Shown in pieces: positions 1 to 31,721 of a stretch of 32,102 nt of DNA (positions are counted from its first letter, which is position 1; every line of letters begins with the position of its first letter). The stretch is from Acidobacteriota bacterium (GTDB taxonomy: Bacteria; Acidobacteriota; Vicinamibacteria; Vicinamibacterales; UBA823): assembly GCA_002730525.1 (NCBI GenBank), contig PCAK01000014.1, forward strand, positions 1 to 32,102, read 5' to 3'. The notes below the pieces were generated by a model that saw only the letters and a list, made by a program, of their open reading frames with translations, made no database searches and was not told where the DNA came from. The position numbers were made by a program, and so were the translations under genes.

Positions 1-268
1 CGCCGAAGGAGGCAATCGCCCCCCCCATACGATCCTCTGGGGCTCGCGGGTCCTGACGACCTGGGACAGCGAGGCCTTCGGATGCGCGTCGACCGGAACA
101 AGCCGGCCAGGGATTGCTGAGAGAGCCGAGCTTCCTTCCCGGTCCGCACTCGGCTCGGTAGAATCGCTTCATGGCAAAGCTGACCGAGATCACTTCAAAG
201 GTTGAGCGTTAGAACCCTGTGTAAGGCTCGATCTTGGATCAGGGAGAAAAAGTCGGAGGGATTACGGC
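1..268. other. Window-edge stretch without an identifiable gene
   Basis: No complete gene is visible. One plus-strand frame is open from the window edge to a stop near 211, and its first third has GC-rich third codon positions, so it could be the tail of a gene cut by the edge. Its translation matches no family I recognise. An eight-cytosine run lies at 19-26. Downstream, the Asp-box gene ends at 269 on the opposite strand, so any gene here would converge on it. Confidence 0.3.
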
Positions 269-2341
269 TCAAGAGGGTGTCGTAGCGCTGAGGATTCCCA
301 CCCTCTGGTTCGTACCTTCAGCGTCATCAGACAAGACGGCAGCGACATACATTCGATACCTCCCATCAGGCAACTGTACTACCCACGGATCATTAAGACT
401 CCATACGTAGAGTCCAACAGGAAGAAAATCTTCTGGAGTGAGAGAAACGACCGGATCCATGTTCCAACTGTGACCTCCGTCCAAGCTCGTCCAAGAGAAC
501 ACTTCTCCCACAGCTCTGTATCCAGGATGCGGCGGTTGAGGACCCTGCACCATGGTGAACAGTCTGATTCGACCGTCAGCTAGGATCAGCGCCCTCGGGT
601 CCCAGTGGATCCAGTGGCAGCTCTTATATTCCTCGTCCTCCAACAAGTTCCGGCGGATGAAAGAAAAGTTCTCCCCACCATCGGTCGAAAGAGCTAATCT
701 CGCTGTCCCGGGGAAGGCACCCAAATAGACAAGTAGGACCTCGTCCTGATCGTTGACAAAGGTGGTATAGACCCCCACCCAGCCCTCATCAATCTCCTGA
801 AGCTTGTACCGAAGTCCTGGGTCCTGCTGGTACCGAACACCGTCTATCGATGTGGAACTCACAAAACCACCACGGCGACGGTCGTACCGGTAAACCCTCC
901 AGCGTCCGTCAGGCAACTGAATGGAACGTGGGTCGTTAATGCCCACGCCGGGGCCTGGCGTTTCTTGCGGGTCTGAAAAGACGAGTCCGTCTTGAGATGT
1001 TGAAAGGAAAGTTGTTCCCTGAAGTTGAGTGTAGAGCCAGATGTCTTCTGTCCGGCTATCTACGCCTGGATGGGGATTAGCCGAACCGTCTACCCGAATT
1101 CCCTCGTCTGGACGGAAGTCTAATTCCCTTGGAATTGCTCCGCCTGCCTTCTTGTACACCCTCTCGTACCAAGGGTTCTCTCCGCACAGAACTGGAGGCA
1201 TCCTTGTCTCTGACGGAGGACTCTGTACCCGGCTGATAGAAAACCGTTCAATCTGAACTTGGGGCGCGCTGGCGCTACTGTCACTCGGTTGGCTCCAAGC
1301 AACAAAGAGTTGGTCGTTTAGAATCGTCATGGTTGGGTGAACGTGGGAGAAGCCAAGTTCGGCCAACTGAATATCCTGCACAACCCTATAGGTCGCATCG
1401 AAGACCATCAAACGCGGATGATACGGGTTGTACCTCATGTCCCTTCCCTCCGCGACAGGACGCCCGATATAGGTGACCAGTGTGTAATCGCCAATCGTTA
1501 CACTGTCCGTAGGAAAGTGACGCTCCAAGCCATCGGCGCCTCCAAGTTCTGCCAACCGAGAAAGTGTGAAATCAGCGGCGACTTCGGTCGCTGTCAAGGC
1601 TCCATTCCCCGCCGGTGAGTTGCTTGACAAGATCCTGAGCCCATTCTGGTGGCGGTGCATACTGTTGCCGATCGCGCCAGAAATGCCGTTGCCACCGACC
1701 GGGAAAATGTGATCTTCGAGAACAACACCATTCAGACTCACCTCTCTGATATGTACCGACCATGACTTACTTCCGGAACTGACGAGTAGGCGGCCCTGCG
1801 ACCATAGCAGGCAGTGATCTGGGAAGTTGTCTACCAAGAAGTCAGACGTTCGGTCGACGATTGGCGCTCGAAAGAGTTCTTCGCCGTCCAACGTAAACCG
1901 TGCGAGGAGTAGAGACTGATCAATGGCCGAGTCCTCGGAGGGCCCTTGTCGAGATCGTCTACCTTCCGCGTAATTCAAGCTTTGATACACGACGATGATC
2001 TCGTCGTTTACTAGTGCAATCCTATGGTCGGCAGGTTCGCCGTACGGTTCGCTAGTACGGGTGATCGGGAAAGGTTTTCCAATGACATTGAGATTGGAAT
2101 CAAGTCGATACACTTGGTGCTTTACTTGACCGCCAATGCTCTGTTTTCGCCCCGGTTCAACAACAGCGACCACTAAGCTTCCATCCGATGCCGACCTAAG
2201 TTCCGGACGATGAGTGCCAATTGGCAACGAAGTGCTAAGTCCTCGAGTGAGGAGAAGAGGGTCCTGGCCATAAGCAAGACTTGGCACAAGACATAGCCCG
2301 ATGATCGACACACGAAAAAACGAACCAAGAATGCATGTCAT
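269..2341 (-). CDS. Secreted sialidase-like (BNR/Asp-box) beta-propeller protein
   Basis: A 690-residue exported protein. A hydrophobic signal peptide ends near an AYG-QD site about residue 25. The C-terminal 300 residues contain Asp-box signatures of the S-x-D-x-G-x-x-W/F type: STDGGENF, SLDGGHSW, and weaker STSQDG and STSIDG copies. This points to a sialidase-fold propeller. The N-terminal half has further blade-like repeats (DGSLVVAV, NDEIIVVY, NDQLFVAW). No catalytic Arg triad could be assigned, so enzyme activity is unproven. I chose the ATG at 2341, which has GGAAG five bases upstream, over an in-frame TTG at 2353. Base composition is visibly lower in GC (near 50 percent) with more A/T at third positions than every neighbour, which suggests horizontal acquisition. 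No operon partner is visible. It could instead be a surface glycan-binding protein. Confidence 0.8.
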   Translation of the reverse strand: MTCILGSFFRVSIIGLCLVPSLAYGQDPLLLTRGLSTSLPIGTHRPELRSASDGSLVVAVVEPGRKQSIGGQVKHQVYRLDSNLNVIGKPFPITRTSEPYGEPADHRIALVNDEIIVVYQSLNYAEGRRSRQGPSEDSAIDQSLLLARFTLDGEELFRAPIVDRTSDFLVDNFPDHCLLWSQGRLLVSSGSKSWSVHIREVSLNGVVLEDHIFPVGGNGISGAIGNSMHRHQNGLRILSSNSPAGNGALTATEVAADFTLSRLAELGGADGLERHFPTDSVTIGDYTLVTYIGRPVAEGRDMRYNPYHPRLMVFDATYRVVQDIQLAELGFSHVHPTMTILNDQLFVAWSQPSDSSASAPQVQIERFSISRVQSPPSETRMPPVLCGENPWYERVYKKAGGAIPRELDFRPDEGIRVDGSANPHPGVDSRTEDIWLYTQLQGTTFLSTSQDGLVFSDPQETPGPGVGINDPRSIQLPDGRWRVYRYDRRRGGFVSSTSIDGVRYQQDPGLRYKLQEIDEGWVGVYTTFVNDQDEVLLVYLGAFPGTARLALSTDGGENFSFIRRNLLEDEEYKSCHWIHWDPRALILADGRIRLFTMVQGPQPPHPGYRAVGEVFSWTSLDGGHSWNMDPVVSLTPEDFLPVGLYVWSLNDPWVVQLPDGRYRMYVAAVLSDDAEGTNQRVGILSATTPS

Positions 2342-2823
2342 GGTGTCTTCCAATGCACAAATGTCGCCGCGATGTCATCCCGCGACGTGGGAAAATAGCA
2401 GATTCCAGAGCCCCCCCCCCGGTTCACCAAGCCAAGCCCCTGGACCCCCCTCGAGCACCCAGTCCGAACTCTAGGTGATGAAATAAAGCAAAGCGCATTC
2501 CAGTCGCCCGTGGCTCGCCCGGGCGCCACGCAAGCTCACGAGACAGCGGCGGAATCCAGAAAGAAACGCCAACCTGCTCACGCACCCGGCGGTTGCCGAC
2601 CGCCGGAGCTCGCCGTTCGTGCACTTCGTGAGACGGTGCCTGTCCTCTCATGGGTACAACGTCCCGCTCACCACCCACGCTTCATGGCCGTTGGGGTCGT
2701 CCCCGGTAGCATGAGGCTGCGCACCTCACCTCGCTAGGCCGACGATGCCTGACTTGGGGCTACACTCCTTGACGTTTGGGTGGTAGGTGGCATCGTAGAT
2801 AGCCGAAGTCGTACACTCCGAGC
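2342..2823. other. 482-bp intergenic stretch with a 10-cytosine run
   Basis: This gap separates the divergent Asp-box and PIG-L genes and must hold both promoters. I could not identify convincing -10/-35 pairs. A run of exactly ten C lies at 2411-2420 and further C-rich blocks at about 2436-2452. Composition changes from the lower-GC block to the high-GC chromosome at about 2500. Short open frames on both strands resemble no family I know. It could contain decayed sequence marking the edge of an acquired island. Confidence 0.4.
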
Positions 2824-3660
2824 GTGCCCCCCTCCCCTCGCCTCCTCGTCCTGACCGCACACCCCGACGACCCCGAGGTCTACGCGGGCGGATTGATTTG
2901 CGGGTACCGGTCGCTTGGCCGAGAGGTGAAGCTGGTCTCGGTGACCGACGGCGGGGCGGGACATCAGGAGAAGACGGCGGCGGAACTGGCGCCCCTTCGG
3001 CGGGCGGAAGCGGCGGCTGCTGGGGCGGTCGTCGGCGCGTCCTATGAGGTCTGGGAGTTTCCGGATGGCCGGCTGCTACCAACGTTGGAGGTGCGCGAAC
3101 GGATCATCCGTGAGATCCGAGCGTTCCGTGCCGATCTGGTCCTGACACATCGGACCTGCGACTACCATCCGGACCACCGCGCGGTGGCGCAGGCGGTGCA
3201 GGATGCGTCGTATCTGGTGACGGTTCCGGCCGTGGTCACGGAAACGCCGGCGCTACGCCGCGGTCCGGTGGTCGCCTACCTACCGGACCTGTTCGAGCGG
3301 CCGGCGCCGTTGCGTGCTGATCGCGTGATCGACGTGACGCCTCACCTCGATACGATCGTCCGGATGCTCACCTGCCACGCGTCGCAGGTCTTCGAGTGGC
3401 TGCCCTACCAGGCGGACACACTCGACACGGTGCCCACGGTTCCTGAAGAACGGCTGGCCTGGGTGAAGGAGTGGTTCGTCGAGCAGATTAGGCCGTGGGC
3501 GAACCGGTACCGCGATGCGATGGTGGCGGCCTTCGGCGAATCGGACGGCCAGGCGACCGACCTGGTCGAGATCTTCGAAATCAGCGAGTATGGACGCCAG
3601 CCCAACGCGGCGCTGCTCGACGAGTTGTTTCCACTTTCCATTGACCCGATGACCCGCTGA
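2824..3660 (+). CDS. PIG-L family N-acetylglucosaminyl deacetylase-like protein
   Basis: A 278-residue zinc-dependent deacetylase of the PIG-L/LmbE family, which removes N-acetyl groups from GlcNAc-type sugars or conjugates. The N-terminal AHPDDPE motif supplies ligands His13 and Asp16. The second motif, HRTCDYHPDHRAV, supplies His118, with His115 and Asp117 beside it. Length is normal for the family. Translation starts at GTG 2824; no strong ribosome site precedes it, but the AHPDD motif 12 residues in fixes the start closely. There is no signal peptide, so it is cytoplasmic. It is followed after 15 bases by an M48 protease on the same strand, a probable two-gene operon. The family also includes mycothiol/bacillithiol-type deacetylases and many enzymes of unknown substrate, so the substrate is not assigned. 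Confidence 0.9.
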   Translation: MPPSPRLLVLTAHPDDPEVYAGGLICGYRSLGREVKLVSVTDGGAGHQEKTAAELAPLRRAEAAAAGAVVGASYEVWEFPDGRLLPTLEVRERIIREIRAFRADLVLTHRTCDYHPDHRAVAQAVQDASYLVTVPAVVTETPALRRGPVVAYLPDLFERPAPLRADRVIDVTPHLDTIVRMLTCHASQVFEWLPYQADTLDTVPTVPEERLAWVKEWFVEQIRPWANRYRDAMVAAFGESDGQATDLVEIFEISEYGRQPNAALLDELFPLSIDPMTR

Positions 3661-3675
3661 GGGAGCCCCACCGAG

Positions 3676-4896
3676 ATGCCACCACGCGAGGATCTGCAAG
3701 CCCAGGGCGACCGCGATCTGCGTGAGCGGCTGCTGGCCGAACGCGCGATTAGCAACGCGATCGAACAGCTCGAGAAGAAGGGCGTCGGGGAAGGTGCGCG
3801 GCGGCAGCTCCTGGCAACGGCGATGCGCCTGACGAAGGAGATGGCGCCGGAGCTGCACGAGATCATCGACGGCTGCCTGAAGACTCTCGGGGTCGACGGC
3901 CCGCTGGAACTGTTCGTCTATCCGGAGCCGAGCTTCAACGCGGCGGCGGTACGGCCGGAAAAGGGTCGGCTGTTGCTGATGGTGTCGTCGGGCGCGCTGG
4001 AAGGGTTCGAGGCGGACGAGCTGCGGTTCATCGCCGGCCATGAGGTCGGCCACTACCTCTTCGATCACCATACGATTCCCACGGCGGCGCTCCTGAGCGG
4101 CGGCAGGAAGCTGGGCCCGGAGCTGACGCTGCGGCTCTTCGCCTGGCAGCGCTACGCGGAGATCTCGGCCGATCGAGCGGGTCTGGTCTGCGCGGGCGGG
4201 CTCGAGCCGTCGGCGCGCAGCCTGTTCAAGCTGGCTTCGGGGCTTTCGGGCGACCGCGTGAAGATCCGCACTGACCAGTTCCTGGCCCAGGTCGCCGACC
4301 TGCGCCTAGAAGCCGAGGCCGGGGCCACGGGTGACGCACCGGTACGCGGCGACTGGTTCGCGACGCACCCGTTCAGCCCGCTCCGATTGAGGGCGGCCGA
4401 GTTGTGCGCCGCCTCGGAGATCATGACGCCGGGCGGCACGACGCGCGAGGAACTCGAGGCCGAGGTGGCGCAGTTGATGGGCCTGATGATTCCGAGCTAC
4501 CTGCAGGAACGCTCGGACACGGCGGAAGCGATGCGGCGGCTGCTCTTTGCCGGCGGCATCGCCGTGGCGTACGCAAAGGGAGAGATCGCCGAGGAGGAGA
4601 TGGCGGAGCTAGAACGGCTACTCGGCCTGGGCTCGGTACCGCCCGGCGTCGATCCCGAGGCGGTCCTGGCCGATCTGCCGAGCCGGATCGAGAGCGTTCG
4701 CAAGAGCGTGCCGCCGCTACGCCGGGTGCAGGTGGTGCGCGACATCTGCCTGGTCACCCGCGCCGACGGCCACGCGACCGACGCGGAGGTGCAGGTCGTC
4801 TGTGAGATCGCCGCCGCGGTCGAGGTCGATCTGTCGGTCGTCATGGCCGGATTCGATCTGAGCAATGCGGCGTGCGGGTGTGAGAAGGCGGACTGA
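3676..4896 (+). CDS. M48-type metalloprotease with C-terminal TerB-like domain
   Basis: A 406-residue protein. Residues 80-235 form an M48 (Ste24/HtpX-like) zinc peptidase domain: HEVGH at 122-126 gives two His ligands and the catalytic Glu, and the downstream EISADRAG supplies the expected third Glu ligand. Unlike HtpX there is no obvious transmembrane segment or signal peptide, so it appears cytosolic. Residues about 285-400 are helical with an RADGHATDAE motif, resembling the acidic metal-binding signature of TerB/DjlA-type tellurite-resistance domains. The peptidase-TerB fusion is the notable feature. The ATG at 3676 follows a GGGAG stretch inside the 15-base gap after the PIG-L gene, so co-translation is likely. 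The TerB assignment rests on motif and position only. Confidence 0.85.
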   Translation: MPPREDLQAQGDRDLRERLLAERAISNAIEQLEKKGVGEGARRQLLATAMRLTKEMAPELHEIIDGCLKTLGVDGPLELFVYPEPSFNAAAVRPEKGRLLLMVSSGALEGFEADELRFIAGHEVGHYLFDHHTIPTAALLSGGRKLGPELTLRLFAWQRYAEISADRAGLVCAGGLEPSARSLFKLASGLSGDRVKIRTDQFLAQVADLRLEAEAGATGDAPVRGDWFATHPFSPLRLRAAELCAASEIMTPGGTTREELEAEVAQLMGLMIPSYLQERSDTAEAMRRLLFAGGIAVAYAKGEIAEEEMAELERLLGLGSVPPGVDPEAVLADLPSRIESVRKSVPPLRRVQVVRDICLVTRADGHATDAEVQVVCEIAAAVEVDLSVVMAGFDLSNAACGCEKAD

Positions 4897-4980
4897 GCAC
4901 CAAGGAAAAACCTGAGGTGGCTTCCCGGCTTCAGGGGGTCTCCGACGCCGTCACCGGTCGCCAACCACGAAGGCCGCCTC

Positions 4981-5207
4981 CTACTCGAGCGTCCGGCCCA
5001 TCGCCTCGGCGGCTAGGAGCTGCTGCTTGGCCTGGGCGACCTGCGGCGTCAAGACATTCACCTCCTGTGTCGCACTGACGAGTTGCTGGCGAAGTAGCTG
5101 CAGCTGATCGCACGCGGCCGCCACACGCCCGGGCTGAAAGCCGCGACCGCACCCAGGATCGCGGCTGCCCGCAAGAGACGATGACATCGCTGGCGCTGGG
5201 CATTCAT
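4981..5207 (-). pseudogene. Small secreted coiled-coil protein interrupted by a frameshift
   Basis: Two minus-strand frames together look like one gene. From the ATG at 5207 one frame encodes a textbook signal peptide (basic start MNAQRQRCHRLLR, then hydrophobic AAAILGAVAA) up to about 5130. The adjacent frame then encodes a Gln/Leu-rich helical segment (CDQLQLLRQQL, VAQAKQQLLAAEA) ending at the TAG at 4981. Losing one base, or gaining two, around 5115-5130 would join them into a protein of about 75 residues. Neither half makes sense alone. It could be a genuine frameshift mutation or a sequencing error in the GC-rich CCCGGGCG stretch. It lies downstream of, and codirectional with, the TatA-like/M48 gene. 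Confidence 0.5.
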
Positions 5208-5414
5208 GGTGGTAGCTCGGGCCGAGCAAACGGGAAACGGAATCTGGCGGAAGCCGGCGGGGTGGTGATTCACCTGACGGCCCTTCACCTCGAACGGGTC
5301 CGTGAGAGGACCGCCTGACAGGGCCGCGCGTTTCAAGGCTACCGTACGACTGACCTCAGGAACAGGAGCAAGATGGAGGGGCCCGGCGAAGCCCTGCGTC
5401 ACGTCGTCGTCACC
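5208..5414. other. Short gap without a supported gene
   Basis: 207 bases separate the frameshifted secreted-protein relic from the M48/TatA-like gene upstream of it. I see no recognisable domain, strong hairpin or promoter. The relic could be read from a promoter here or from readthrough of the Fic-M48 transcript. Confidence 0.3.
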
Positions 5415-6446
5415 CTACGTCACGATCTTGATCGCCTCTCCGATGCGCGGGGGCTTGGTGACGGGATAGCCGTTCAGGATGGCGAGTGTGGCGGCGTCGA
5501 CCGGCTTGCTCGCGAGGCTCTGCCAACTATCGCCGTCGGCGATGGTATGTGCGGCGAGGCGATGACCGGGGCCGTCGCCGAAACGTAGCCCCTGGATCTT
5601 CTGCCGGTAGCCGCTCCGGTTGTCACCCGTCGGCCGATTCCTGACGCGTGTGACGGTGTCTTCCAACTCGGCGACGCGGTCGGGTGACGAGGGGTGCGTC
5701 GAAAGCCAGGTGGGGACCTCTTCCCCGCTGGCATCCTGCAACCGTCCGAGGGTCGTCAGCACACGCGGCAGCCCCGCCGGGTCCCAGCCGCACGCGGCGA
5801 GATAGCCGACGGCGAGGCGGTCGGCCTCAAGTTCGTCGTCGCGCCCGTAGCTCAGGAAGAGCATGCCGAGCCCTTTATCAGCAAATCCACTCAAGGTACG
5901 TGCAGCGGGCCAGAAGATCCGGACGAGCCAGAGCCCGGCCTGCGCGCCCTGCTCGCGCGTGTAGCCCTTGGCGCGGTGGCGCGCGGTGACGTGGCCGATC
6001 TCGTGCGCGAGCACACCGGCCAGCTCGGCCTCGTCGCAGAGATAGGCCAGAAGGCCCCGCGTCAGATAGATGAAGCCGCCGGGTGCGGCGAAGGCGTTGA
6101 CAGACGAATCGTCGACCACACTGAACCGCCAGGGTAACTGGGGCCAGTGCGAGGCCTTGGCCATCTTGAGGCCGACGCCGTGGATGTATTGCTGGAGGTC
6201 GTCGTCGTCGTAGAGCCCCCACTTCTGCTGCACCTCGGCGTGGGTCCGCCGGCCGAGCGCCAACTCCTTCTCGAGTGACATCAGCGTGAATTCCTTCTCG
6301 CCGGTCACCGGGTTGGTCACCCAGACCTTCTTCTTGCCGACCTTGACGGCGGCCTTCGTCGTGTCGGCGGCGCGCGACAGCCGGGAGGTGCCGAAGACCA
6401 GCACGATGATGAGGACGATGAGGAGGAGTTCGGCGGCGCCGATCAT
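5415..6446 (-). CDS. M48 metalloprotease with TatA-like N-terminus and LysM-like tail
   Basis: A 343-residue membrane-anchored zinc protease. HEIGH at 148-152 and the EADR Glu at 207 are the M48 zinc site, and the SSVNAFAAPGG segment before it is typical of BepA/YfgC- and LoiP-type proteases. The first 40 residues are unusual: an acidic residue at position 6, one hydrophobic helix, then FG (18-19), Arg and a Lys-rich amphipathic stretch. This is the layout of TatA/TatB translocase subunits rather than a cleavable signal. The C-terminal 45 residues (HTIADGDSW, LNGYPVTKP, GEAIKIV) look like a LysM or BepA-type tail. The gene overlaps the upstream Fic gene by four bases, so the two are translationally coupled. 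A role in envelope-protein quality control is inferred from the protease family. Confidence 0.88.
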   Translation of the reverse strand: MIGAAELLLIVLIIVLVFGTSRLSRAADTTKAAVKVGKKKVWVTNPVTGEKEFTLMSLEKELALGRRTHAEVQQKWGLYDDDDLQQYIHGVGLKMAKASHWPQLPWRFSVVDDSSVNAFAAPGGFIYLTRGLLAYLCDEAELAGVLAHEIGHVTARHRAKGYTREQGAQAGLWLVRIFWPAARTLSGFADKGLGMLFLSYGRDDELEADRLAVGYLAACGWDPAGLPRVLTTLGRLQDASGEEVPTWLSTHPSSPDRVAELEDTVTRVRNRPTGDNRSGYRQKIQGLRFGDGPGHRLAAHTIADGDSWQSLASKPVDAATLAILNGYPVTKPPRIGEAIKIVT

Positions 6447-7615
6447 GGGGTCACGCCCCGTTCCGTGCCTTCACTCAAGATACCCAGGTATTGCCCGTAG
6501 GCAAAGAGCCGGTTCCGTCGTTGACCGGTCAGTTCGCGGGCGATCCCGAGTTCGATCAGCAGGTCCATCGCCTTCGACGCCGCAGGAAACGACAGTTGCG
6601 TGGTACGCGAAACCTCCTGGATGGAGGAAATCGGGCGTGCTTTGAGCGCTTCGTGTACACGCAAGGCGGACCCGGCTCGGCGCTTGAGCGGCTCGAATCT
6701 GGTGCGGTCGGCCTGAAACAACTCTCCCAACTGCTCGGCGGTCGCAACCGCTCCGACGGCCGTGCTCCGCACACCCTCGAGGAAGAACGCCAGCCATCGC
6801 TCCCAGTCGCCGTCGCGACGGACGACGTCCAGCAGGTCGTAATAGGTCGAGCGATGCGCCTTGAAGTAGAGGCTGAGGTACAGCAGTGGCTCACGGAGCG
6901 CACCAGTGTGGCAGAGGAGCAGCGTGATCAGCAACCGCCCCACCCGGCCGTTGCCGTCCAGAAAGGGGTGAATCGTCTCGAACTGGAGGTGCGCGATGCC
7001 TGCTCGAATCAGCACAGGTAATGCATCGTCGTCGGCATGGAGGAATTGCTCGAGGTCGGCCATGCAGGCTTCGACCTCGGCGTGAGGTGGCGGCACGAAG
7101 ACGGCGTCGCCCGGCCTGGTCCCACCGAGCCAGTTCTGCGAGCGACGGAACTCGCCTGGAAGCTTCCCGCTGCCGCGTCCTCGCGAGAGCAGCACTTCGT
7201 GGATCTCCCGAATGAGACGGTTGGACAGCGGGAAACCACCTCTGAGTCGACTGAGACCGTGCTCGAGCGCCGCAACGTAGTTCGAGACCTCGGTCACGTC
7301 ATCGATGGGGACACCGGGCGCCTCATCGAGCTCGAAGAGGAGGAGATCCGACAGCGACGATTGAGTCCCCTCGATCTGTGACGAGAGGACGGCCTCCTTG
7401 CGGACGTACGCGTAGATGAAGAGCGACTTGTCGGGCAGTAGCGCCGACACTCCATCCAAGCTGCCCACCGCATGCTGCGCCGCCTCGAAGGCCCTTTGGA
7501 GATCGCCGCCGAATGCCACGGGAGGTCGGGGAGGCAGCGGCGCCGGCACGAATGCACGGACGCGTTCTCCTCCGGTGCTCGTGACCACGTATTCTCCTGG
7601 CTTGTTCCGCTTCAC
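6443..7615 (-). CDS. Class II Fic family protein with C-terminal winged helix
   Basis: A 390-residue Fic protein, predicted to transfer AMP (or another phosphate-containing group) to hydroxyl side chains of target proteins. The catalytic loop HPFLDGNGRVGR starts at His216 and is complete. The flap region GEFRRSQNWLGG (155-166) is present. The N-terminal inhibitory helix carries S78-x-x-x-E82-G83, the class II autoinhibition motif, so activity should be restrained by Glu82. The last 80 residues look like a winged helix-turn-helix (ISSIQEVSRTTQLSFPAASKAMDLL), as in many Fic proteins that may bind DNA. The start is GTG at 7615 with GGGA upstream. It is first of a two-gene unit with the TatA-like M48 gene and follows an AT-rich region full of palindromes, consistent with autoregulation. 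There is no Phd-type antitoxin gene. Confidence 0.93.
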   Translation of the reverse strand: MKRNKPGEYVVTSTGGERVRAFVPAPLPPRPPVAFGGDLQRAFEAAQHAVGSLDGVSALLPDKSLFIYAYVRKEAVLSSQIEGTQSSLSDLLLFELDEAPGVPIDDVTEVSNYVAALEHGLSRLRGGFPLSNRLIREIHEVLLSRGRGSGKLPGEFRRSQNWLGGTRPGDAVFVPPPHAEVEACMADLEQFLHADDDALPVLIRAGIAHLQFETIHPFLDGNGRVGRLLITLLLCHTGALREPLLYLSLYFKAHRSTYYDLLDVVRRDGDWERWLAFFLEGVRSTAVGAVATAEQLGELFQADRTRFEPLKRRAGSALRVHEALKARPISSIQEVSRTTQLSFPAASKAMDLLIELGIARELTGQRRNRLFAYGQYLGILSEGTERGVTP

Positions 7616-7755
7616 TTCGATCCCGTGGGCTCAGCTGAGTTGAATAACGCCGCTTGTTATTAATATTTAGACGTTAAAGTTAAATATAATTCGTCCTGAA
7701 AAACAAGCGCTTGACGAAAATCCTCTGTAACACGCTCTAAATATTAGAGTTGTTA
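7616..7755 (-). promoter_or_regulatory. AT-rich control region with nested palindromes upstream of fic
   Basis: This is the most AT-rich stretch of the segment. It contains CTCAGCTGAG (7630-7639); AATAAC/GTTATT arms with a 7-base loop (7643-7661); the perfect palindrome CAAGCGCTTG (7704-7713); CTCTAA-ATA-TTAGAG (7735-7749); and an 11-bp perfect inverted repeat TAATATTTAGA (7661-7671) / TCTAAATATTA (7736-7746). The spacing suggests operators for a dimeric regulator, possibly the Fic protein's own winged helix. Several -10-like AT-rich hexamers are available on the minus strand, and I cannot choose one. The 7735-7749 palindrome also follows the DoxX stop closely and could contribute to transcript termination. 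Confidence 0.6.
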
Positions 7756-8409
7756 CTACCAGAGCGGCAGCCGCGGATACCGGCGGTGGAGCCAGTAGTC
7801 GGCGCCGAACGAGCGGCCGGCGGCGCCGAGGAGGATCGGCAAGAGGTAGAAGAACGTCAGCCAGTGGCCGCCGACCGGCAGCAGCGGGTCGCCGGCGAGG
7901 CAGGCGTAGTTGAACGCCAGGTACATGCCCAAGGCGGCGCCTAGCCGGGTGGCGGCGCCGAACGTGAGGCTGAGGCCGACGAGCAGTTCCGCGACGGTCA
8001 CCAGGAAGGCGACAGTGCCGATCCAGGGCAGGACCGTCTCCTGGGCGAACCCGACGATGAGGCCGTAGCTCTGGCCTGTGGCGAGCAGATCGTTGATCCG
8101 TCGCGCCATCTCGGTGGTCGTGGCGGTCGTCATCCAGTGCCAGCCGCTCCCGAGCCAGAACGACCCCAGGACGACCCGGATGACGACCAGCAGCACGCGC
8201 GGGACCCTGGCCGAGAGGCTGTCCTTGATGAAGCGGGTCGCGGTGACGGGTTCGAAAAGACCGGCACCGGCCGGCGTGACGTCAATGGCCGACTGGGCCG
8301 CCGGGTTCGGTCGGGCCTCCGCCTTGGATTTCCGGGCCGCCTGCCGGGTCGTGGCAACGACGACGAGCAGGATGAAGGCGATGACGAGGATTTCGAAGAG
8401 GCCGAGCAC
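7756..8409 (-). CDS. DoxX family integral membrane protein
   Basis: A 217-residue membrane protein. An N-terminal single helix (FEILVIAFILLVVV) with a following basic stretch precedes the DoxX domain. The domain spans about residues 65-217, with several hydrophobic helices and typical segments (VVIRVVLGSFWLGSGWHW, TVAELLVGLSLTFG, LTFFYLLPILLGAAGR). DoxX proteins are linked to quinone-dependent redox or disulfide stress systems, but the biochemical role is poorly defined. The N-terminal helix has an acidic residue at position 6, as in the TatA-like start of the nearby M48 protease, but it lacks the FG hinge. The start is GTG at 8409 and its ribosome site is weak. It is the last gene of the five-gene operon, 17 bases after the U32 gene, so translation may depend on upstream reading. 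Confidence 0.85.
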   Translation of the reverse strand: MLGLFEILVIAFILLVVVATTRQAARKSKAEARPNPAAQSAIDVTPAGAGLFEPVTATRFIKDSLSARVPRVLLVVIRVVLGSFWLGSGWHWMTTATTTEMARRINDLLATGQSYGLIVGFAQETVLPWIGTVAFLVTVAELLVGLSLTFGAATRLGAALGMYLAFNYACLAGDPLLPVGGHWLTFFYLLPILLGAAGRSFGADYWLHRRYPRLPLW

Positions 8410-8426
8410 CGGAAGAGATTAAACCA

Positions 8427-9425
8427 TTAGCCCGCTACGTCGCGGTAGTAACACATGTAGCTGGAGTCGCAGAGGTCGGGTGTGTCGCGCAGCGCCTTGG
8501 CGAACGCGGCAGCTTCTTCGGGTGGGGCGCCGGCCCCGAGCTTGTCGATGACGGCGCGGACGAGCTTGAGGCTCACGAGCTTCCTGACCGCGGGCGCCTG
8601 GCGTCCGGAGATCTTGATGGCGGTGACGCCGATGTCGGCCAGCTCCGCGATGGCGCAGAGACCGCAGGCGCCGTTCTGCAGCCCGCGATGCGAGACGGTG
8701 CAGCCGCCCCCGACGTGCCAGACCCAGTCGCGGTAGTCGCGGTACTGCTCTTCGAGCTGCCCCGATTCGACGCTGGCCAGCCTCGAGGTCGCCGAGTGGA
8801 AGGTGTAGGCCTGCTCCCGGTGGCAGAAGGCGTCGCCCACGCTGTGGGTCGTCAGGCAGAACCCCTCGGTGTAGGGGCAGCCGTCGTTGAGGACGAAGGC
8901 TTCCCATTCGATGTCGGGCCCGGCGCTGGCGACGAGGCGCGCCATCTCGGTCAGCCCGAGGTCGCGGGGCAGGATGACCCGCGACGCGCCCAGCTCCTGG
9001 TAGAAGCCGGCCGCCTCGGCGCTGAAGCAGGCGCCGAGCGAGCTGACATGCAGCGGCGTCTCGATGCCCGCCTCCCGCAGCGCCAGCATCAGGGCGGGGT
9101 CGGCGACGATGAGCGCGGCGACGCCGAGGCCCGAGGCCCGGCGGGCCAGCTCGAGGACGAGCGTCAGCTGGTCCTCGGTGTAGTGGTGCGCGTTGAGCGT
9201 GAGCGACACCGGGATCGAGTAGCGCTGCGCGCTGTCGACCAGCGTGCCGAGCGCGTCGTAGCTCAGCAGGTTGGCTCCCTTCGGGCTCCGGCGGTTGAGC
9301 CAGATGGCCACGTTGTACCGCTCGAGCCACTCCGGCGGCGTGAGGCCGCAGTAGAACTCACCGGCGCCGTTCTCGGCGAGCATCTCGACTTCGTCGGCCG
9401 AGCTGATCGGACAGGCGATCTTCAT
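8427..9425 (-). CDS. U32 family protein, UbiU-like
   Basis: A 332-residue U32 protein. These adopt a TIM-barrel-like fold and commonly carry a [4Fe-4S] cluster. The start MKIACPISS followed by GAGEFYCGL is typical of the family. The motif GCPYTEGFC puts Cys183 and Cys190 seven residues apart, the same spacing as UbiU Cys169/Cys176. Cys201 and Cys242 (with 254 and 257 near) could complete a cluster. UbiU with UbiV performs oxygen-independent ubiquinone hydroxylation in Proteobacteria; other U32 members modify RNA. The ATG at 9425 was chosen because an in-frame extension upstream overlaps the other U32 gene and lacks family similarity. It lies 23 bases after the UbiV-like gene. The substrate is unknown, and ubiquinone would be unexpected if this is an acidobacterium. 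Confidence 0.87.
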   Translation of the reverse strand: MKIACPISSADEVEMLAENGAGEFYCGLTPPEWLERYNVAIWLNRRSPKGANLLSYDALGTLVDSAQRYSIPVSLTLNAHHYTEDQLTLVLELARRASGLGVAALIVADPALMLALREAGIETPLHVSSLGACFSAEAAGFYQELGASRVILPRDLGLTEMARLVASAGPDIEWEAFVLNDGCPYTEGFCLTTHSVGDAFCHREQAYTFHSATSRLASVESGQLEEQYRDYRDWVWHVGGGCTVSHRGLQNGACGLCAIAELADIGVTAIKISGRQAPAVRKLVSLKLVRAVIDKLGAGAPPEEAAAFAKALRDTPDLCDSSYMCYYRDVAG

Positions 9426-9448
9426 GGTCGGGTCTGACACCGGTGCGA

Positions 9449-10444
9449 TCAGATCGGAAGTTGCGGCTGATAGATGACCCGCTCGACGCCCCGCGACTCG
9501 GCGTCGGTCAGGGTGGTACGCAGCCGGTCGGCGGCGCGCGAGTAGAACACGGTGTTCCCCCGATGAAACATCCGGACGGGCCCACCGGGCACAGGCGCCG
9601 CGTCGGGATCGCCATTGGCGGCGAATTCGGCGAAGTGCCGCTGGCACTCCTGGGCGCACTCCCGGGCGGCGATGAACTTCTCCGCCTTCGGCCGGCCGAG
9701 CGAGGCAAACAGACAGACGCGCCCGGTGGCGACGAATCCGTAGGGCATGTGGAGGCCGGCGGCGACTGGCAACGGTTCGAGCTCGACGTCGCGCGCCTGC
9801 CCCTCGGCGTGACCGAAGCCGACGTCGTCCATCTCGACCATCCGGATGCCGAATTGATCGAGGAACGTCCGGTAGGCGGGCACGGTGAGGTTCGACTGCC
9901 GCAACGCGGCGTGTGCCGGTGGCGGCAGCTGCGGATGGCCATCGTAATAGGCGGTGGCCAGCGGGTCGCGGAGCGTCTTGTGGAGCAGCCGGCCCAGCAC
10001 CGGAGTGAGCGTCGGGAACTCGCGCCGCAGGAAGCGCAGCACGCCCCAGTCGTTGACGACTACCTCGGCCTCGTCGCCGCGTCCGGCGACCGGCGCGAAC
10101 GGAGCCAGCCCGGCCAGGCCTTCGAGCCGCGACAGCAGCGGGCGGAGGCGATCGATGCCGTCGTCGGTGACATACGGCGTGAGCAGCGTGAGGGCGAGCC
10201 CGCGCTCGGCGGCCGCCGTGTGCGCCCGCTCCAACAGCTGGACTGACGGAATCAGCCGTTCGCAGAACTCGTTGCCTAGGTAGACCCGGGTGACCTGAAT
10301 CGGACCGAACAGCTCGTCGACCACAGCGCGCGTCGCGCTCTGGACGGTGTCGGTGGCTCCGGACGACGGCGACGACCGCTCAACCGCCGGCAGATCGAGA
10401 TGCTCGATCTCCTCGACCGTCCTGATGTGAAGGGCCCACTCCAT
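9449..10444 (-). CDS. U32-related protein, UbiV-like partner
   Basis: A 331-residue protein more divergent than its neighbour. The core VVNDWGVLRFLRREFP (129-144) corresponds to the NDxGxxRLL region of U32/UbiV proteins. Cys61, Cys244, Cys263 and Cys267 form one N-terminal Cys plus a C-terminal cluster ending C-x3-C, which parallels the UbiV set Cys39/180/193/197. A cluster-binding protein that dimerises with the adjacent UbiU-like protein is the natural inference. There is no signal peptide or membrane helix, so it is cytoplasmic. The ATG at 10444 lies 10 bases after the arylsulfotransferase stop, so it is translated within the same operon. The pairing and order suggest an obligate heterodimer, but the substrate cannot be read from sequence. 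Confidence 0.72.
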   Translation of the reverse strand: MEWALHIRTVEEIEHLDLPAVERSSPSSGATDTVQSATRAVVDELFGPIQVTRVYLGNEFCERLIPSVQLLERAHTAAAERGLALTLLTPYVTDDGIDRLRPLLSRLEGLAGLAPFAPVAGRGDEAEVVVNDWGVLRFLRREFPTLTPVLGRLLHKTLRDPLATAYYDGHPQLPPPAHAALRQSNLTVPAYRTFLDQFGIRMVEMDDVGFGHAEGQARDVELEPLPVAAGLHMPYGFVATGRVCLFASLGRPKAEKFIAARECAQECQRHFAEFAANGDPDAAPVPGGPVRMFHRGNTVFYSRAADRLRTTLTDAESRGVERVIYQPQLPI

Positions 10445-12592: not shown

Positions 12593-12903
12593 GGGTGGTC
12601 CTTTCGCCTTCCACAGTATCATTGGGGCATGGCCGAACATGACGGCGCTTCGCGGCCGCGCCGGTCAGGTCATCACGCGGCTGGAAGCGGAAATCTCCTC
12701 GGGTGTACTGGAGCGGAACGACAAGGTCGAGATGGTGACGACCGGGAGAACAGGCCGGCCGAGCGTCTGCCCGGCCGGTTGTAGGCAGGCCTTCGGGCTT
12801 CGCCCGGCCAGACAGCCCTAAAGGACTGCCCTACGAATGGAGATGTAGGGCAGGGCTTCAGCCCTGCCGGGGCGAGCCCGCAAGGCGATGCCCGAACCTA
12901 CCC
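12593..12903. other. 311-bp gap: BI-1 promoter side, coding-like fragment and repeat copy A
   Basis: The left part should contain the promoter of the BI-1 operon on the minus strand; GATACT (complement of 12614-12619) is a weak -10 candidate. A plus-strand frame from ATG 12639 has GC-rich third positions and a plausible helical stretch (ITRLEAEISSGVLERNDKVE) before running into the dispersed repeat at 12792. It may be the start of a truncated gene, but I recognise no family. The right part is the composite hairpin element described separately. Confidence 0.4.
12792..12896. repeat. Composite two-hairpin intergenic element, copy A
   Basis: Outer arms TTCGGGCTTCGCC (12792-12804) and GGCGATGCCCGAA (12884-12896) pair with one mismatch. 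Inside are a degenerate hairpin, CAGCCC/GGACTG (12813-12828), and a perfect one, GGCAGGGC-TTCA-GCCCTGCC (12849-12868). CTGCCCTAC (12826-12834) can also pair with GTAGGGCAG (12845-12853), so two alternative folds exist. The right flank (CGAGCCCGC then GGCGA) matches copies B and C. It lies between the GGT stop and the BI-1 promoter side. Confidence 0.85.
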
Positions 12904-14595
12904 CTACCTCGGCGCCGAGGCACCGCCGTTCTCGTTGTCAGCAGCGCCGATGAATATCCCGTCCTCGACGAAGATGGAGTTGGCGTCGCCTCCCCCACCG
13001 CGCGCGACGCGGTGCCCCATCACGGTCAACTGCTTCACGAAGTCCTCGTACTCAGGATCCTCGAACCCCTGGAAACCCACGCGGTCGGGGAACCACTGCA
13101 TGTTCAAGCGCGGCGCGTCGACGGCGTCGCGGATGTTCATGTCGAATTCCAGGACGCCGAGCGTGACGTTCAGCACGGTATTGATGATCGTCCGGCCGCC
13201 GGGGCTCCCGGTCACCAGCACCACCTTGCCGTCGCGCGCGGCGATGGTCGGTGACATCGAACTGAGCATCCGTTTCTCGGGCACGATGAGGTTGGCGTCG
13301 GTGCCGATGCTGCCTCGGTTGTTCGTCACGCCCGGGTTCCGGTTGAAGTCGCCCATCTCGTTGTTGAGCAGGAAGCCGGCGCCCTCGACGACGACGCCCG
13401 AGCCATAGCCCGACTCCAGCGTGTAGGTGTTCGACACGGCCATGCCGTTCCGGTCGATCACGGAATAGTGCGTCGTCTCCTCGCTCTCCTCGACCTCGGT
13501 CAGCCGCGGGCCGATCTTCTCGCTGGGCGTCGAGTGCGCCGGATCGATCGAGGCGGCCAGTTCGCGCGCGTATTCCTTCGTCGTCAGGTGACGCGGGATG
13601 TCGATGAAATCGTCGTCGCCGAGGTAGCGCGCGCGGTCGGCGTAGGCACGGCGCATCGCCTCGATGATGAGGTGCGCGGTGTCGGGCGACCAGCGGCCCT
13701 TCGACTTCAGGTCGAAGTTCTCGAGGATGCCGAGCATGATCGTCAGCGCGATTCCGCCCGAGCTGGGCGGCGGCGAGCTGAAGACCTCGGTGCCGCGGTA
13801 GGTCGTGCGGATCGGCTCGCGCAGGAGCGCGGTGTAGCGCGAGAGATCTTCCTTCGTGATGTAGCCGCCACCGCGCTCCATCTCGGCGGCCAGCAGGTCG
13901 GCGGTCTCACCGGCGTAGAAGCCCTCGTTCCCCAGCTCGGCGATCCGCCGCAGTGTCCGGCCGAGATCGGGGAGGACGAGCCGGTCGGTGACGACCCACG
14001 GCTCCGTCCCGCCGTTCTTCCCGTAGACCCGTTTGAACTCGGCGTTCTCGGAGCGCTCGACCGTTCGGTTGAGCGCCTCGGCGAGGCTGTTCAGGACGAA
14101 GCCGTCCTCGGCGAGCTCGACGGCCGGCATCACCAGCGCTTCCCAGGGCAGCGTGCCGAACGTCTCGTGCGCCAGGACGAAGCCGGCGACCGTGCCGGGC
14201 ACGCCGACCCATCGATGGTTCTTCCGGCTACCGCCCTCGATGAACATCTCCTCGGTAGAGGCGAGCGGCGCCTTCTCGCGATAGTCGACGAAGGTCGGCG
14301 CCGTGCCGTCGCCCGGATGGACGAGCATGAAGCCGCCGCCGCCGACGTTCCCGGCCGACGGATGCGTCACGGCCAGGGCCAAGCCGGTCGCGATCGCCGC
14401 GTCGACGGCGTTGCCGCCCTGGGCGAGGATCGACGCGCCGACATCCGAGGCGTCGACCGATCGCGACACGACCATGCCGTAGTCGGAAGTGGCGTCGCGA
14501 TGGTCCTGGGCCAGTGCGGCCGGGGCCGCGACGACCAGCGCCATGACGACAATCAGGCTGAACCGGAGGGTCTGACGGGTGCGGGCGCGAAGCAT
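12904..14595 (-). CDS. ggt: Periplasmic gamma-glutamyltransferase
   Basis: A 563-residue Ntn-hydrolase proenzyme that hydrolyses or transfers gamma-glutamyl groups, for example from glutathione. A signal peptide (LIVVMALVVAAPAALAQ) covers about residues 13-30. The large-subunit signature AGNVGGGGFM is at 81-90. The autocleavage site and nucleophile lie in TTHYSV, so Thr374 is the predicted first residue of the small subunit, after ESEE. The downstream GSPGGRTIINTVLNV and LLNNEMGDF segments complete the active site, and the length matches the family. The ATG at 14595 is supported by AAGGAG seven bases upstream. A perfect TATAAT lies 34 bases upstream. It is flanked on both sides by dispersed hairpin elements and appears monocistronic. 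Confidence 0.96.
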   Translation of the reverse strand: MLRARTRQTLRFSLIVVMALVVAAPAALAQDHRDATSDYGMVVSRSVDASDVGASILAQGGNAVDAAIATGLALAVTHPSAGNVGGGGFMLVHPGDGTAPTFVDYREKAPLASTEEMFIEGGSRKNHRWVGVPGTVAGFVLAHETFGTLPWEALVMPAVELAEDGFVLNSLAEALNRTVERSENAEFKRVYGKNGGTEPWVVTDRLVLPDLGRTLRRIAELGNEGFYAGETADLLAAEMERGGGYITKEDLSRYTALLREPIRTTYRGTEVFSSPPPSSGGIALTIMLGILENFDLKSKGRWSPDTAHLIIEAMRRAYADRARYLGDDDFIDIPRHLTTKEYARELAASIDPAHSTPSEKIGPRLTEVEESEETTHYSVIDRNGMAVSNTYTLESGYGSGVVVEGAGFLLNNEMGDFNRNPGVTNNRGSIGTDANLIVPEKRMLSSMSPTIAARDGKVVLVTGSPGGRTIINTVLNVTLGVLEFDMNIRDAVDAPRLNMQWFPDRVGFQGFEDPEYEDFVKQLTVMGHRVARGGGGDANSIFVEDGIFIGAADNENGGASAPR

Positions 14596-14628
14596 AGGGG
14601 TCTCCTTCGGCAAATAGGTCGAAGGAGA

Positions 14629-14634
14629 ATTATA
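14629..14634 (-). promoter_or_regulatory. Candidate -10 box (TATAAT) of ggt
   Basis: A perfect TATAAT on the minus strand lies 34 bases before the ggt start, giving a leader of about 26 bases that holds the AAGGAG ribosome site. No TTGACA-like box is found at 16-18 bases upstream. That position falls inside repeat copy B, so the element may replace or mask the -35 region. Confidence 0.5.
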
Positions 14635-14640
14635 CCGCCT

Positions 14641-14760
14641 GGGCTTCGCCTGGCCGCTCGCCCGGCAGCCCTGAAGGGCTGCCCTACGCGTAGCTCGAAG
14701 TGTCGGCGATTGCAGGGCAGGCATTCATGCCTGCCTGGACGAGCCCGCAGGGCGAAGCCC
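14641..14760. repeat. Composite two-hairpin intergenic element, copy B (most complete)
   Basis: The best-preserved copy. Perfect outer arms GGGCTTCGCC (14641-14650) and GGCGAAGCCC (14751-14760) enclose two perfect 9-bp hairpins: GGCAGCCCT/AGGGCTGCC (14664-14672, 14675-14683) and GGCAGGCAT/ATGCCTGCC (14716-14724, 14727-14735). The layout is a three-way junction of about 120 bases. It lies between the cytochrome-PQQ gene end and the ggt promoter, abutting the TATAAT box. Confidence 0.9.
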
Positions 14761-14768
14761 AACCACCT

Positions 14769-16916
14769 CTACCTTCGCGTCCCGACCCGGCCGCCGGGCA
14801 GCTTGAAGACGTAGAGCGCGTTGCCGGTATTCGGATGGCGGACGTCTGGCGTGAGGAGACTCGGCACGTTGCGCGGGCTGCCGCCGCCCAGGCCGGCCGT
14901 GGCGGCGATGTATTGCTCGCCGTCGACCTCGAACGTAATCGGGAAGCCCTGCACCGACGTGCCGAGGCGCGTTTCCCAGAGCACCTTGCCACTCTCGACG
15001 TCGTGCGCGCGGAAGTAGCGATCGAGGTCGCCGGCGAACGCCAGCCCTGTGGCGGTCGTGAGGACGCCGGTCAGAAAAGCCGCGCGCTGCTCGAAGCTCC
15101 AGACCTCCTCGAGCGTCTCGACGTCGTAGGCCGCCAGCTTGCCCAGGTTGCCGTCGGTCCCCGGCATCTCGAACCACTTCCGGTCGGCCTGCGACCCGCC
15201 GGAGCCTTCTTCGAGCACGACCTCCCGCCCGGAGATCTCCAGGCAGCTCTGGCTGAGCGGCGTGATGAGGACGTTGGCCTCCGGACTGTAGGCCATCGCC
15301 ATCCAGTTGTGCCCGCCCGCGGTACTCGGGCAGACCGAGACCCACTGCGACACCTCGGCCGTGGCGATGTCGGCGCGGTAGGTCACGGTGCCGGTGTCGG
15401 GGTCGATCCGATCGAAGACGTTCTGATAGACAGTTTCCTTGTGGCCGAGGAACTCGCCCGTCTCGCGGTCGAGCTTCCAGAGGATGCCGTGCTTGCCGAT
15501 CGTGTAGAGCAGCTTCCGGCCGTCGACATCGATGAGCACCTTCTCGAACACCTCGTCGAGGTCGAGCGACTCGCCGGGCACGTGCTGCCGGTACCAGACG
15601 ATCGCCCCGTCGTCGGGATCGATCGCCAGCGTCGAATTGGTGTAGAGCGCGGCATCGTCGGTCGTCATGCCGCGGCTGGCCGCGACCCAGGGCTTCGCCT
15701 GCGCGGTCGGCCAGTAGATGAGGTCCAGCTCCGGATCGTAGCTTCCGGCGATCCACGAATCGCCGCCGCCCCTGAGCGTCAACGGCAGGTCGCCCCAGGT
15801 GTCGCCGCCCGGCTCTCCGGGCTGTGCAATGGTGAACGTCCGCCAGAGTTCCTCTCCAGTCTCGACGTCGTGCGCGGTGATGAAGCAGCTCTCCTCCTGG
15901 AACCGCTGGCAGCCGTTGATGCCGTTGATGACCTTGCCGCGAACGACCAGCGGGCCGCTGACGTTCGTGTAGCCCTTGGTGTGGTCGGCGATCTGGGTCT
16001 CCCAGATGACTTCGCCGGTGTGCGCGTCGATCGCCACCATGAAGGCGTCCTTTGTCGGCAGGAAGATCTTGTTGTCGTGGAAGCCGAGGTTGCGCATCGT
16101 CGTGAAGCCGCGCAGCATCTGCTCGGGCAGGTCGCGCCGGTACTCCCAGAGGAGCGTCCCGGTCTCTGCGTCGAGCGCCTGAATGACGTTGCCAGGATTC
16201 GGCAGGTACATGACACCGTCGTGGACAAGCGGCGTCGGCTGATTCGTGCCGTCGCCCATCGCCCAGACCCACGCGAGCCTGAGATCGTGCACGTTGCCGG
16301 CCGTCACCTGGTCGAGCGGACTGTAGCCCCAGCCGTCGTAGGTCCGGCGGAACATCAGCCAGTCGGCCGGGTCGGGGTCGACGAGCGCCGCATCGGGCAC
16401 CGGGCTCAGTTCTCCGACCGGCAGGTAGTTCGTCGTGCTGTTGCCGACGACGATCGGCTCGGCCGGGTCAGGCTCAGTCGCCGGCGCGGGCGCGGCGCTG
16501 GCGACTCCGGTCGAGGGCTCGCCATTCATGACCCCGGTCGACCCCAGGGCCAGCGGCGCACTACCCGCGCCGATCCCGTTCGCCTGCAGCAGGTAGGCGA
16601 CGATGTTGACGTAGGTGCGATCGGTGACCGAGTCGTCGCCTTCCGGCGGCATCGTGGCGCGGATGTACTCGAGCAGCTCACCCACCGGCCGATCACCCCA
16701 GGCGTTCCGGAAGTTCGGACCGGCCAGTTCGGGCGCCTCGAACGCACCGGCGAAATCGGACATGTGGCAGCCGGCGCAGTCAATCTCGTAGGCCTCGGCG
16801 CCGGCCTCGGCCTGCGCCGCAGTGTAGACCGGCGCCGCTTGCGCCCGGACGTGCGCGGGTACTGCGGTGAAGACGGCGACGACGAGCGCGGGGACGACGA
16901 ACACCTCTGGCTTCAT
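14769..16916 (-). CDS. Cytochrome c-PQQ-type beta-propeller fusion with altered active site
   Basis: A 715-residue exported protein: signal peptide (1-26), cytochrome c domain with CAGCH at 47-51 and likely axial Met89, an Ala/Pro-rich linker (about 117-160), then a quinoprotein propeller (about 180-715) with blade motifs such as [14 protein letters not shown]. Classical quinohaemoprotein dehydrogenases put haem at the C-terminus; here it leads. Compared with MxaF-type enzymes, the vicinal Cys pair is absent. The GAE(F/L)G Glu region is replaced by a Cys-flanked insertion (336-344), and the GTGNP Asn aligns with Gln406. Only Asp452-x-Asp454 remains at the catalytic-Asp/lanthanide-Asp position. 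PQQ use is therefore doubtful. The gene follows the CHRD gene by six bases, an operon. Confidence 0.85.
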
Positions 16917-17357: not shown

Positions 17358-17516
17358 CGGATCCTCCTCCCCGCGCGTCCGCCGCGGGGCCTCAGGATAC
17401 CGGATTGCGGGAGTCGAGCGTGCAACGGCTGGGCAGGGCAGGCTTTCAAGCCTACCGGGACGAGCCGCAGGCGAAGTCCTTGCACGTCCCACCGCCCCGG
17501 GCGTAGAGTCGGGCGC
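17358..17516. promoter_or_regulatory. Divergent promoter gap between CHRD and GH116 genes
   Basis: This 159-base gap must hold both the CHRD-operon and GH116 promoters. It also contains the partial repeat copy C. I see no strong sigma70-type -10/-35 pair on either strand. The spot is informative because the repeat sits in a pure promoter region, where a terminator would serve no purpose. Confidence 0.45.
17431..17482. repeat. Composite hairpin element, copy C (right half only)
   Basis: Only the second hairpin and right flank are present. AGGCTT-TC-AAGCCT (17440-17453) lies within a GCAGGGCAGGC context, and is followed by GGGACGAGCCGCAGGCGAAG, which closely matches the right flank of copies A and B. 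No left arm is seen, so this is a truncated copy in the divergent CHRD/GH116 promoter region. Confidence 0.8.
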
Positions 17517-26171: not shown

Positions 26172-26235
26172 GCGCGGCCCTCAAGGGCCGCGCCACAGGG
26201 TACAACGGGAGGCGGACGCAGGCATGAGCCTGCGT
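26172..26235. repeat. Composite hairpin element, copy D (between convergent genes)
   Basis: There are two perfect hairpins: GCGCGGCCCT/AGGGCCGCGC (26172-26181, 26184-26193) and ACGCAGGC-ATGA-GCCTGCGT (26216-26235). The two-hairpin order and spacing match copies A and B, but the sequence has drifted and the outer arms are not evident. It starts seven bases after the DUF5916 stop and ends 13 bases before the aminotransferase stop. It could act as a bidirectional terminator, although no T-run follows. Confidence 0.75.
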
Positions 26236-31214: not shown

Positions 31215-31721
31215 TCAGGTGTCTCGCGATCCCAGGACTGGGTGGCGCGGGACTTCAGTCCCGCGATCCGCGATCCGCAGGATCGCGCTCTTCAACAGCG
31301 TGCCGGCAGCCTTCGCAAGCGTCTGCAGCCTCGCCATGAAACCCCACGCCGCCTCCTCGATGTCCTCGGCCTTCGCAAACTCTTCCTGCGTGTCGAGTAC
31401 AAGCGGCTCATAAACAACTCCGAGCGTGTACCGCTGCTCCTCATGCTTCGACAGCACGTGGAACTCACTCTTCTGCGCAGTACCCGTCGCAGAGACAAAC
31501 TCCTTCGGCTCATAGCCGTGCGATTTCAACTACCCTCTCGCTTGCGCCTGGGTGAACTTCGCGGCGTTGAACCTCAAACTCTGCACGGTGAGAGGCGCGT
31601 CAGGACTACTCTTCAGCGCGCCCATGATCGCGTCCACACCCTCGGCGAGAGTCTTCCTTCCCTCAATCCTCACCGAGCTCGGGTGCTTGATCCGCGCAGA
31701 GTGTTCTCGTGCATACGGCAT
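31215..31721 (-). pseudogene. XkdF-like phage protein with in-frame amber codon and truncated C-terminus
   Basis: Two contiguous, in-frame pieces form one gene. From ATG 31721 the product begins MPYAREHSARIKHPSS and runs to QSLRFNAAKFTQAQARG. Then comes TAG at 31530-31532, then LKSHGYEPKEF. In homologous phage proteins this junction reads AxxWLKxHGYxP, so TAG replaces a Trp (TGG). The following residues, RYTLGVVYEPLVLDTQEEFAKAEDIEEAAWGFM, match the start of the XkdF putative phage serine protease domain (continuous in the sequence). The rest of that domain is missing, and the frame runs instead through repeat copy E to a TGA at 31215. It was probably the prohead-protease-type gene of a prophage or gene-transfer-like element. 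Confidence 0.78.
31246..31287. repeat. Composite hairpin element, copy E
   Basis: CGCGGGAC-TTCA-GTCCCGCG (31246-31265) has the same stem length and TTCA loop as the second hairpin of copy A. A second perfect hairpin CGCGATCC-GCA-GGATCGCG (31269-31287) follows. It lies where the XkdF-like sequence loses similarity and just upstream of the transporter start, so it forms both the truncated end of the phage gene and part of the operon leader. Confidence 0.75.

Follow-up and report, generated by a model that had tools for sequence, protein, structure and literature searches.

Dispersed two-hairpin repeat units of the GTAG-tagged REP type in a genus of Acidobacteriota

The window, i.e., the whole stretch of DNA analysed (32,102 nucleotides), is the entire contig C14 of the genome G000 (3.31 Mb, 45 contigs, estimated completeness 99.2%). 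It carries on its minus strand a gamma-glutamyltransferase gene (12904-14598; PF01019 and TIGR00066 above cut-off), which is flanked by the repeat copies A and B. The gene on the other side of B (14769-16916, minus strand; PF01011, PF13442) encodes a PQQ-type beta-propeller dehydrogenase-like protein with a cytochrome c domain. Direct reading of the sequence recovered A, B and a third copy, C, where a preliminary description had placed them and with the features described there. A repeat search joined the three in a 34-nt repeat family (starts at 12845, 14712 and 17433; 79-88% identity), and their limits were refined to 12786-12895 for A, 14639-14762 for B and 17433-17481 for C. Both A and B contain the same unit of about 50 nt twice, as a tail-to-tail dimer with the tags inside. 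The left unit of A (12786-12834, minus strand) starts with the tag GTAG (12834-12831), followed by hairpin 1 (approximately 12830-12811) and a degenerate hairpin 2 (approximately 12809-12788); it scored 47.5 bits with the model R1 described below, outside the training set. The right unit (12845-12895, plus strand) has its tag at 12845-12848, hairpin 1 at 12849-12868 and hairpin 2 at approximately 12870-12893; 8 nt lie between its end and the gamma-glutamyltransferase stop. As read from the sequence, the tags are 10 nt apart in A (12835-12844) and 24 nt apart in B (14688-14711). In B, the left unit (14639-14687, minus strand) contains the tag (14687-14684), hairpin 1 and hairpin 2, while the right unit (14712-14762, plus strand; tag GCAG), assigned by sequence, unit alignment and R1 match, reaches to within 6 nt of the PQQ dehydrogenase-like gene, at its 3' end. 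Copy C (17433-17481, plus strand, tag GCAG) lies in a divergent intergenic region.

This anatomy changes part of the earlier picture. An outer closing stem had been regarded as a module of its own; what was seen there is hairpin 2, which each unit contributes once and which therefore occurs in two inverted copies. In B, the outer arms GGGCTTCGCC and GGCGAAGCCC correspond to the outer portions of this hairpin in its two units. Likewise, the supposedly separate conserved right flank is hairpin 2 of the unit, and C, taken for a partial composite, turned out to be a complete single unit. Copy A can indeed fold in a second way, through CTGCCCTAC and GTAGGGCAG, in which its two inverted tag ends pair with each other. 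Of the proposed composite two-hairpin design the repeat itself stood, but what looked composite is one two-hairpin unit doubled tail to tail, and the majority of copies consist of just one such unit.

The alignment of 20 units showed a common order of tag, an 8-bp hairpin 1 with the loop TTCA or similar, one base, and hairpin 2. The tag was GTAG in 17 of the 20 units, GCAG in two (right unit of B, and C) and ATAG in one. In the subfamily of A, B and C, hairpin 2 is built of a 4-bp outer stem GGNC/GNCC, a GA/GAA internal loop and a short inner stem (GGNC-GA-GCC..GGC-GAA-GNCC). In this R1 alignment 97.3% of the cells expected to pair did so, compared with 84.2% in shuffles, and the covariation score of 0.321 exceeded both the shuffled value of 0.092 and all slid versions, which remained far below. 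For hairpin 1, 99.4% of the cells were paired and five pairs had changed on both sides. One outer pair of hairpin 2 occurs as G-C, A-U, C-G or U-G; the others hardly vary, so that hairpin 1 provides most of the covariation support within this subfamily. Units of a second subfamily have the tag GTGG or GTAG and a hairpin 1 of the type CGCGGGNCTTYAGNCCCGCG; their hairpin 2 has 9 bp, and four of its pairs had changed on both sides (covariation 0.280 versus 0.082 shuffled). Compensatory changes, named beforehand as a check on the stems, were thus present in both subfamilies, and the stems also contain G-U pairs. The window holds a unit of subfamily 2 at 31242-31290 on the plus strand, with the tag GTGG and a perfect hairpin 2 (69.4 bits with the model R2, whose training set includes it). 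A further GTGG-tagged hairpin, GTGGCGCGGCCCTTGAGGGCCGCG, was observed on the minus strand at 26173-26196, directly after the stop of a gene ending at 26165; it resembles hairpin 1 of subfamily 2 and has no clear second hairpin.

The proposal of a dispersed REP-like family with further copies genome-wide was borne out. A sequence search with the window segment 12700-13000 gave 22 further matches at E<=1e-3 in the host genome, which excludes a chance resemblance, and copy B yielded many further host matches too. R1, trained on 20 units that match by construction, detected 30 units in G000 at E<1e-5, a number that rises to 42 when the threshold is relaxed to E<1e-3. Matches outside the training set included C27:24058 (69.2 bits), C32:114186 (64.9 bits) and C3:31268 (56.7 bits), while some of the weaker matches are units of subfamily 2. 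At E<=1e-5, R2 found 33 units in G000; the corresponding number for UBA2161 (G001), the other genome of the genus compared, was 8. Over both subfamilies, two-hairpin units occupy at least 60 places in G000. Most are single; of the well-supported sites, about four are tail-to-tail dimers (A, B, C5:140561 and C6:20763). Scanning 297 Acidobacteriota genomes with R1 at E<=1e-8, with 20 candidates scored per genome, the two-hairpin form of A, B and C was found in two, both of this genus; many genomes across the order carry a GTAG-tagged hairpin 1 without this second hairpin. By score only, R2 also matched G016, G030 and G039 (E 1e-7 to 1e-5). Rfam searches gave no match for the window and, for eight repeat loci, neighbouring tRNAs and one sub-threshold match, nothing relevant. 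Another dispersed repeat, CGGGGGCTCGGGGCGAAGCCCCGACC-like and not obviously GTAG-tagged, was seen at L207:6648-6697, with more than 10 matches in UBA2161.

Some units occur in a long form, identified by direct reading of the copies, in which the hairpin 1 loop is longer by approximately 40-55 nt. Three such copies were found in G000 (L208:1393-1491, L218:997-1095 and L211:1131-1231) and four in UBA2161 (L087:1501-1594, two copies at L236, and L238). Their extra sequence is partly shared (TTGCCACNACCTGCAGG ... GCCCCC.GAAGCG). At C13:1333 the long form is present in UBA2161 and the short form in G000.

The position relative to genes was scored for 23 sites using home-made gene calls, with B set from annotated gene ends and C left out by the gene caller: 14 sites were convergent, 9 tandem and none divergent. 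Direct reading places C in a divergent intergenic (promoter) region. Within 15 nt of a stop codon lay 18 of the 23 sites, compared with a mean of 12.3 for random placement in the same spacers, and at 6 sites the TAG of the tag was itself the stop codon (mean 1.0 at random in these spacers). That GTAG REPs often supply a TAG stop codon has already been reported (PMC3733652). The units sit at gene 3' ends and sometimes provide the TAG stop, like GTAG-tagged REPs. Their location downstream of genes, often between convergent genes, would also suit intrinsic terminators, or unrelated hairpins alike by chance. However, the hairpins are not followed by a T-run, and tag and two-hairpin order are common to dozens of copies; intrinsic terminators were rejected since the T-run is absent and the tag shared, and we regard this reading as a whole as highly improbable.

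The comparison with the sister species covered contig DCWN01000008.1 of UBA2161 (30,225 bp; corresponding to G001:C33) and a handful of other matching sites. UBA2161 is syntenic with much of the window between 10 and 20 kb, at approximately 93% identity. Copies A and C are missing there beside conserved genes: about 6 nt of unrelated sequence stand at the site of A and about 23 nt at that of C. Four units (C13:1333, C40:66396, C3:31268 and C32:52093) are common to both species at matching sites. Shared sites together with the absence of A and C indicate vertical inheritance plus species-specific turnover. The site C27:24058 looked empty in UBA2161 but was not counted as clean, since remnants there may include the tag and a portion of hairpin 2. 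Neither excision nor insertion of a unit was observed.

These data also bear on the idea that the units are functional RNA structures of 3'-UTRs, serving mRNA-end protection, attenuation or damping of translation near the stop, and kept mainly by selection on expression. The G-U pairs and covariation of the stems and the 18 of 23 sites close to stop codons agree with it, as does the precedent of E. coli, where REPs at most 15 nt from a stop codon were reported to lower translation (PMC12306157). On the other hand, covariation is equally expected of hairpins formed by single-stranded DNA, A and C are absent in UBA2161 although the adjoining genes are conserved, the genes next to the units are unrelated to each other, and C is situated in a divergent promoter region. 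As the main explanation we consider this unlikely. A structured-RNA role of the units is nevertheless possible; a 3'-UTR function and a mobile origin are compatible.

At the locus of B, UBA2161 carries 3.8 kb with a 105-aa ORF, a gene for a 183-aa RAYT (REP-associated tyrosine transposase), an ADOP permease gene and one REP, the tag of which forms the permease stop codon. This segment lies exactly between the genes that flank B in G000, as would be expected if B were the scar of a deletion, by recombination between flanking REPs, of a RAYT-bearing segment kept in UBA2161. However, a single clear REP borders the segment. In outgroups of the family the PQQ and CHRD genes are kept, while neither gamma-glutamyltransferase nor RAYT stands beside them; as these outgroups lack the neighbourhood, an insertion in UBA2161 is equally possible and either polarity would fit at B. 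We hold the deletion to be a tentative option, with an appreciable but minor share of the probability; it bears on the history of B alone and not on the nature of the family.

The search for a RAYT/Y1 partner suggested earlier thus had a divided outcome, with one present in UBA2161 at the site of B and none found in G000. The Y1_Tnp profile search of G000 gave no match (controls were positive in 5 of 14 genomes), nor did tblastn with the UBA2161 RAYT, with the reservation that the draft is 99.2% complete and a RAYT could be missing from the assembly. The UBA2161 protein scored 111 bits with the curated RAYT family NF047646 (cut-off 80). In a tree of 29 Y1 proteins of the order it fell into a group of six (support 92/99), which includes all three genes of the order with GTAG hairpins of the present design within 400 nt (L117, L121 and L122); the same 400-nt scan found near L118 a GC-rich hairpin with a GCGG tag, which is of a different design. 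RAYT genes flanked by a REP with a similar hairpin 1 were found in G019, G042 and G016 of the order, and the one of G019 is surrounded by GTAGGGCAACCCTTCAGGGTTGCC-type REPs. Because the UBA2161 RAYT groups with GTAG-flanked RAYTs and that of G019 is surrounded by REPs, a link between RAYT and the GTAG units is likely for the genus, although the UBA2161 gene is not flanked in this way. Co-occurrence among 60 genomes was weak and was left aside as evidence, with Y1 genes in 15 of 20 genomes with R1 matches versus 21 of 40 without.

Taking all observations together, A, B and C probably belong to a family of GTAG-tagged REPs, with A and B as REPIN/BIME-like dimers, non-autonomous, spread by a RAYT seemingly lost here and retained as 3'-end hairpins. 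A RAYT, an HUH/Y1 single-strand transposase, would have used the tag and hairpin of single-stranded units as its recognition site and so mobilised these non-autonomous elements, either singly or in pairs. Units would have been kept mostly at gene 3' ends, either tolerated there or acting as 3'-UTR hairpins. The RAYT would then have been lost in G000, while one persists in UBA2161 where G000 has B. Mobility of the units is probable; recognition by a RAYT, movement and an effect at the RNA level are what we infer from the pattern. Certain findings weaken the reading as GTAG-tagged REPs. G000 is without a RAYT and yet richer in R1 units than the RAYT-bearing UBA2161 (42 versus 12 at E<1e-3), no GTAG hairpin lies closer than 400 nt to the UBA2161 RAYT, the nearest REP being approximately 2.8 kb away, and most copies are single. 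It is further conceivable, though we give it the smaller part of our confidence, that the mobile unit is a fixed module in which the perfect hairpin 1 after the tag and also hairpin 2 (with its GA/GAA internal loop in the subfamily of A, B and C) would be read by the transposase. Such a class would have a long and a short form, with a difference of about 40-55 nt in the hairpin 1 loop, and these would interchange at one site between species. If the transposase does read hairpin 2, a further mode of REP recognition would join those already known from groups 2 and 3, one each of two.

The GTAG-tagged REPs (Di Nocera et al., 2013; PMC3733652) share with the present units the GTAG (or GYAG/GTRG) tag before a palindrome, a stem of 6-9 bp with a loop of 2-4 nt (8 bp in hairpin 1 here), many dispersed and mostly intergenic copies, single units next to inverted dimers, the bias for gene 3' ends and the use of the tag as stop. 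In contrast, the 24 families described have one stem-loop per unit, whereas here hairpin 2 is present in most units of both subfamilies, and some units have a hairpin 1 loop enlarged by additional sequence. Since the extra module leaves the defining features intact, the two-hairpin unit is a variant of GTAG REPs. It has a partial precedent in the Pseudomonas TIRs, where hundreds of copies combine a GTAG unit with a further stem-loop (PMC3733652); compared by description, the GTAG-1 units are degenerate there, while tag and hairpin 1 are intact here. The REPINs of Pseudomonas fluorescens SBW25 resemble A and B in their two inverted REPs with a spacer that may form one large hairpin (PMC3116915), but are inverted doublets, as opposed to mostly single units in G000, where some four of the well-supported sites are dimers. 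Substrates of TnpA-REP (RAYT) in E. coli and Stenotrophomonas also have the GTAG tag before the palindrome (PMC8266576), and the UBA2161 protein belongs to the same curated transposase family. Hairpin 1 is perfect like group 3 REPs; the irregular GA/GAA stem is found in the second hairpin. Acidobacteriota are not among the phyla listed for GTAG repeats (PMC3733652), and one genus of this phylum is added here to the known carriers. In this pair of species, matching sites can be compared for units gained or lost, for the long versus the short form and for whether a RAYT is there.

Two further differences between the species were noticed along the window. The stretch 156-10168 is 98.7% identical to G001:C33:1-10000 (L231), with approximately 83-96% in the rest and a step in identity near 9-10 kb; judged by identity, the two species may have exchanged this stretch recently, or it may reflect an effect of assembly or binning. 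At 12739-12744 UBA2161 is about 1 kb longer (L126:7757-8806) and carries a pair of similar ORFs (147 and 144 aa), neither of which had a match in Pfam or NCBIfam; what is left of them at this place in the window seems to be a fused remnant.
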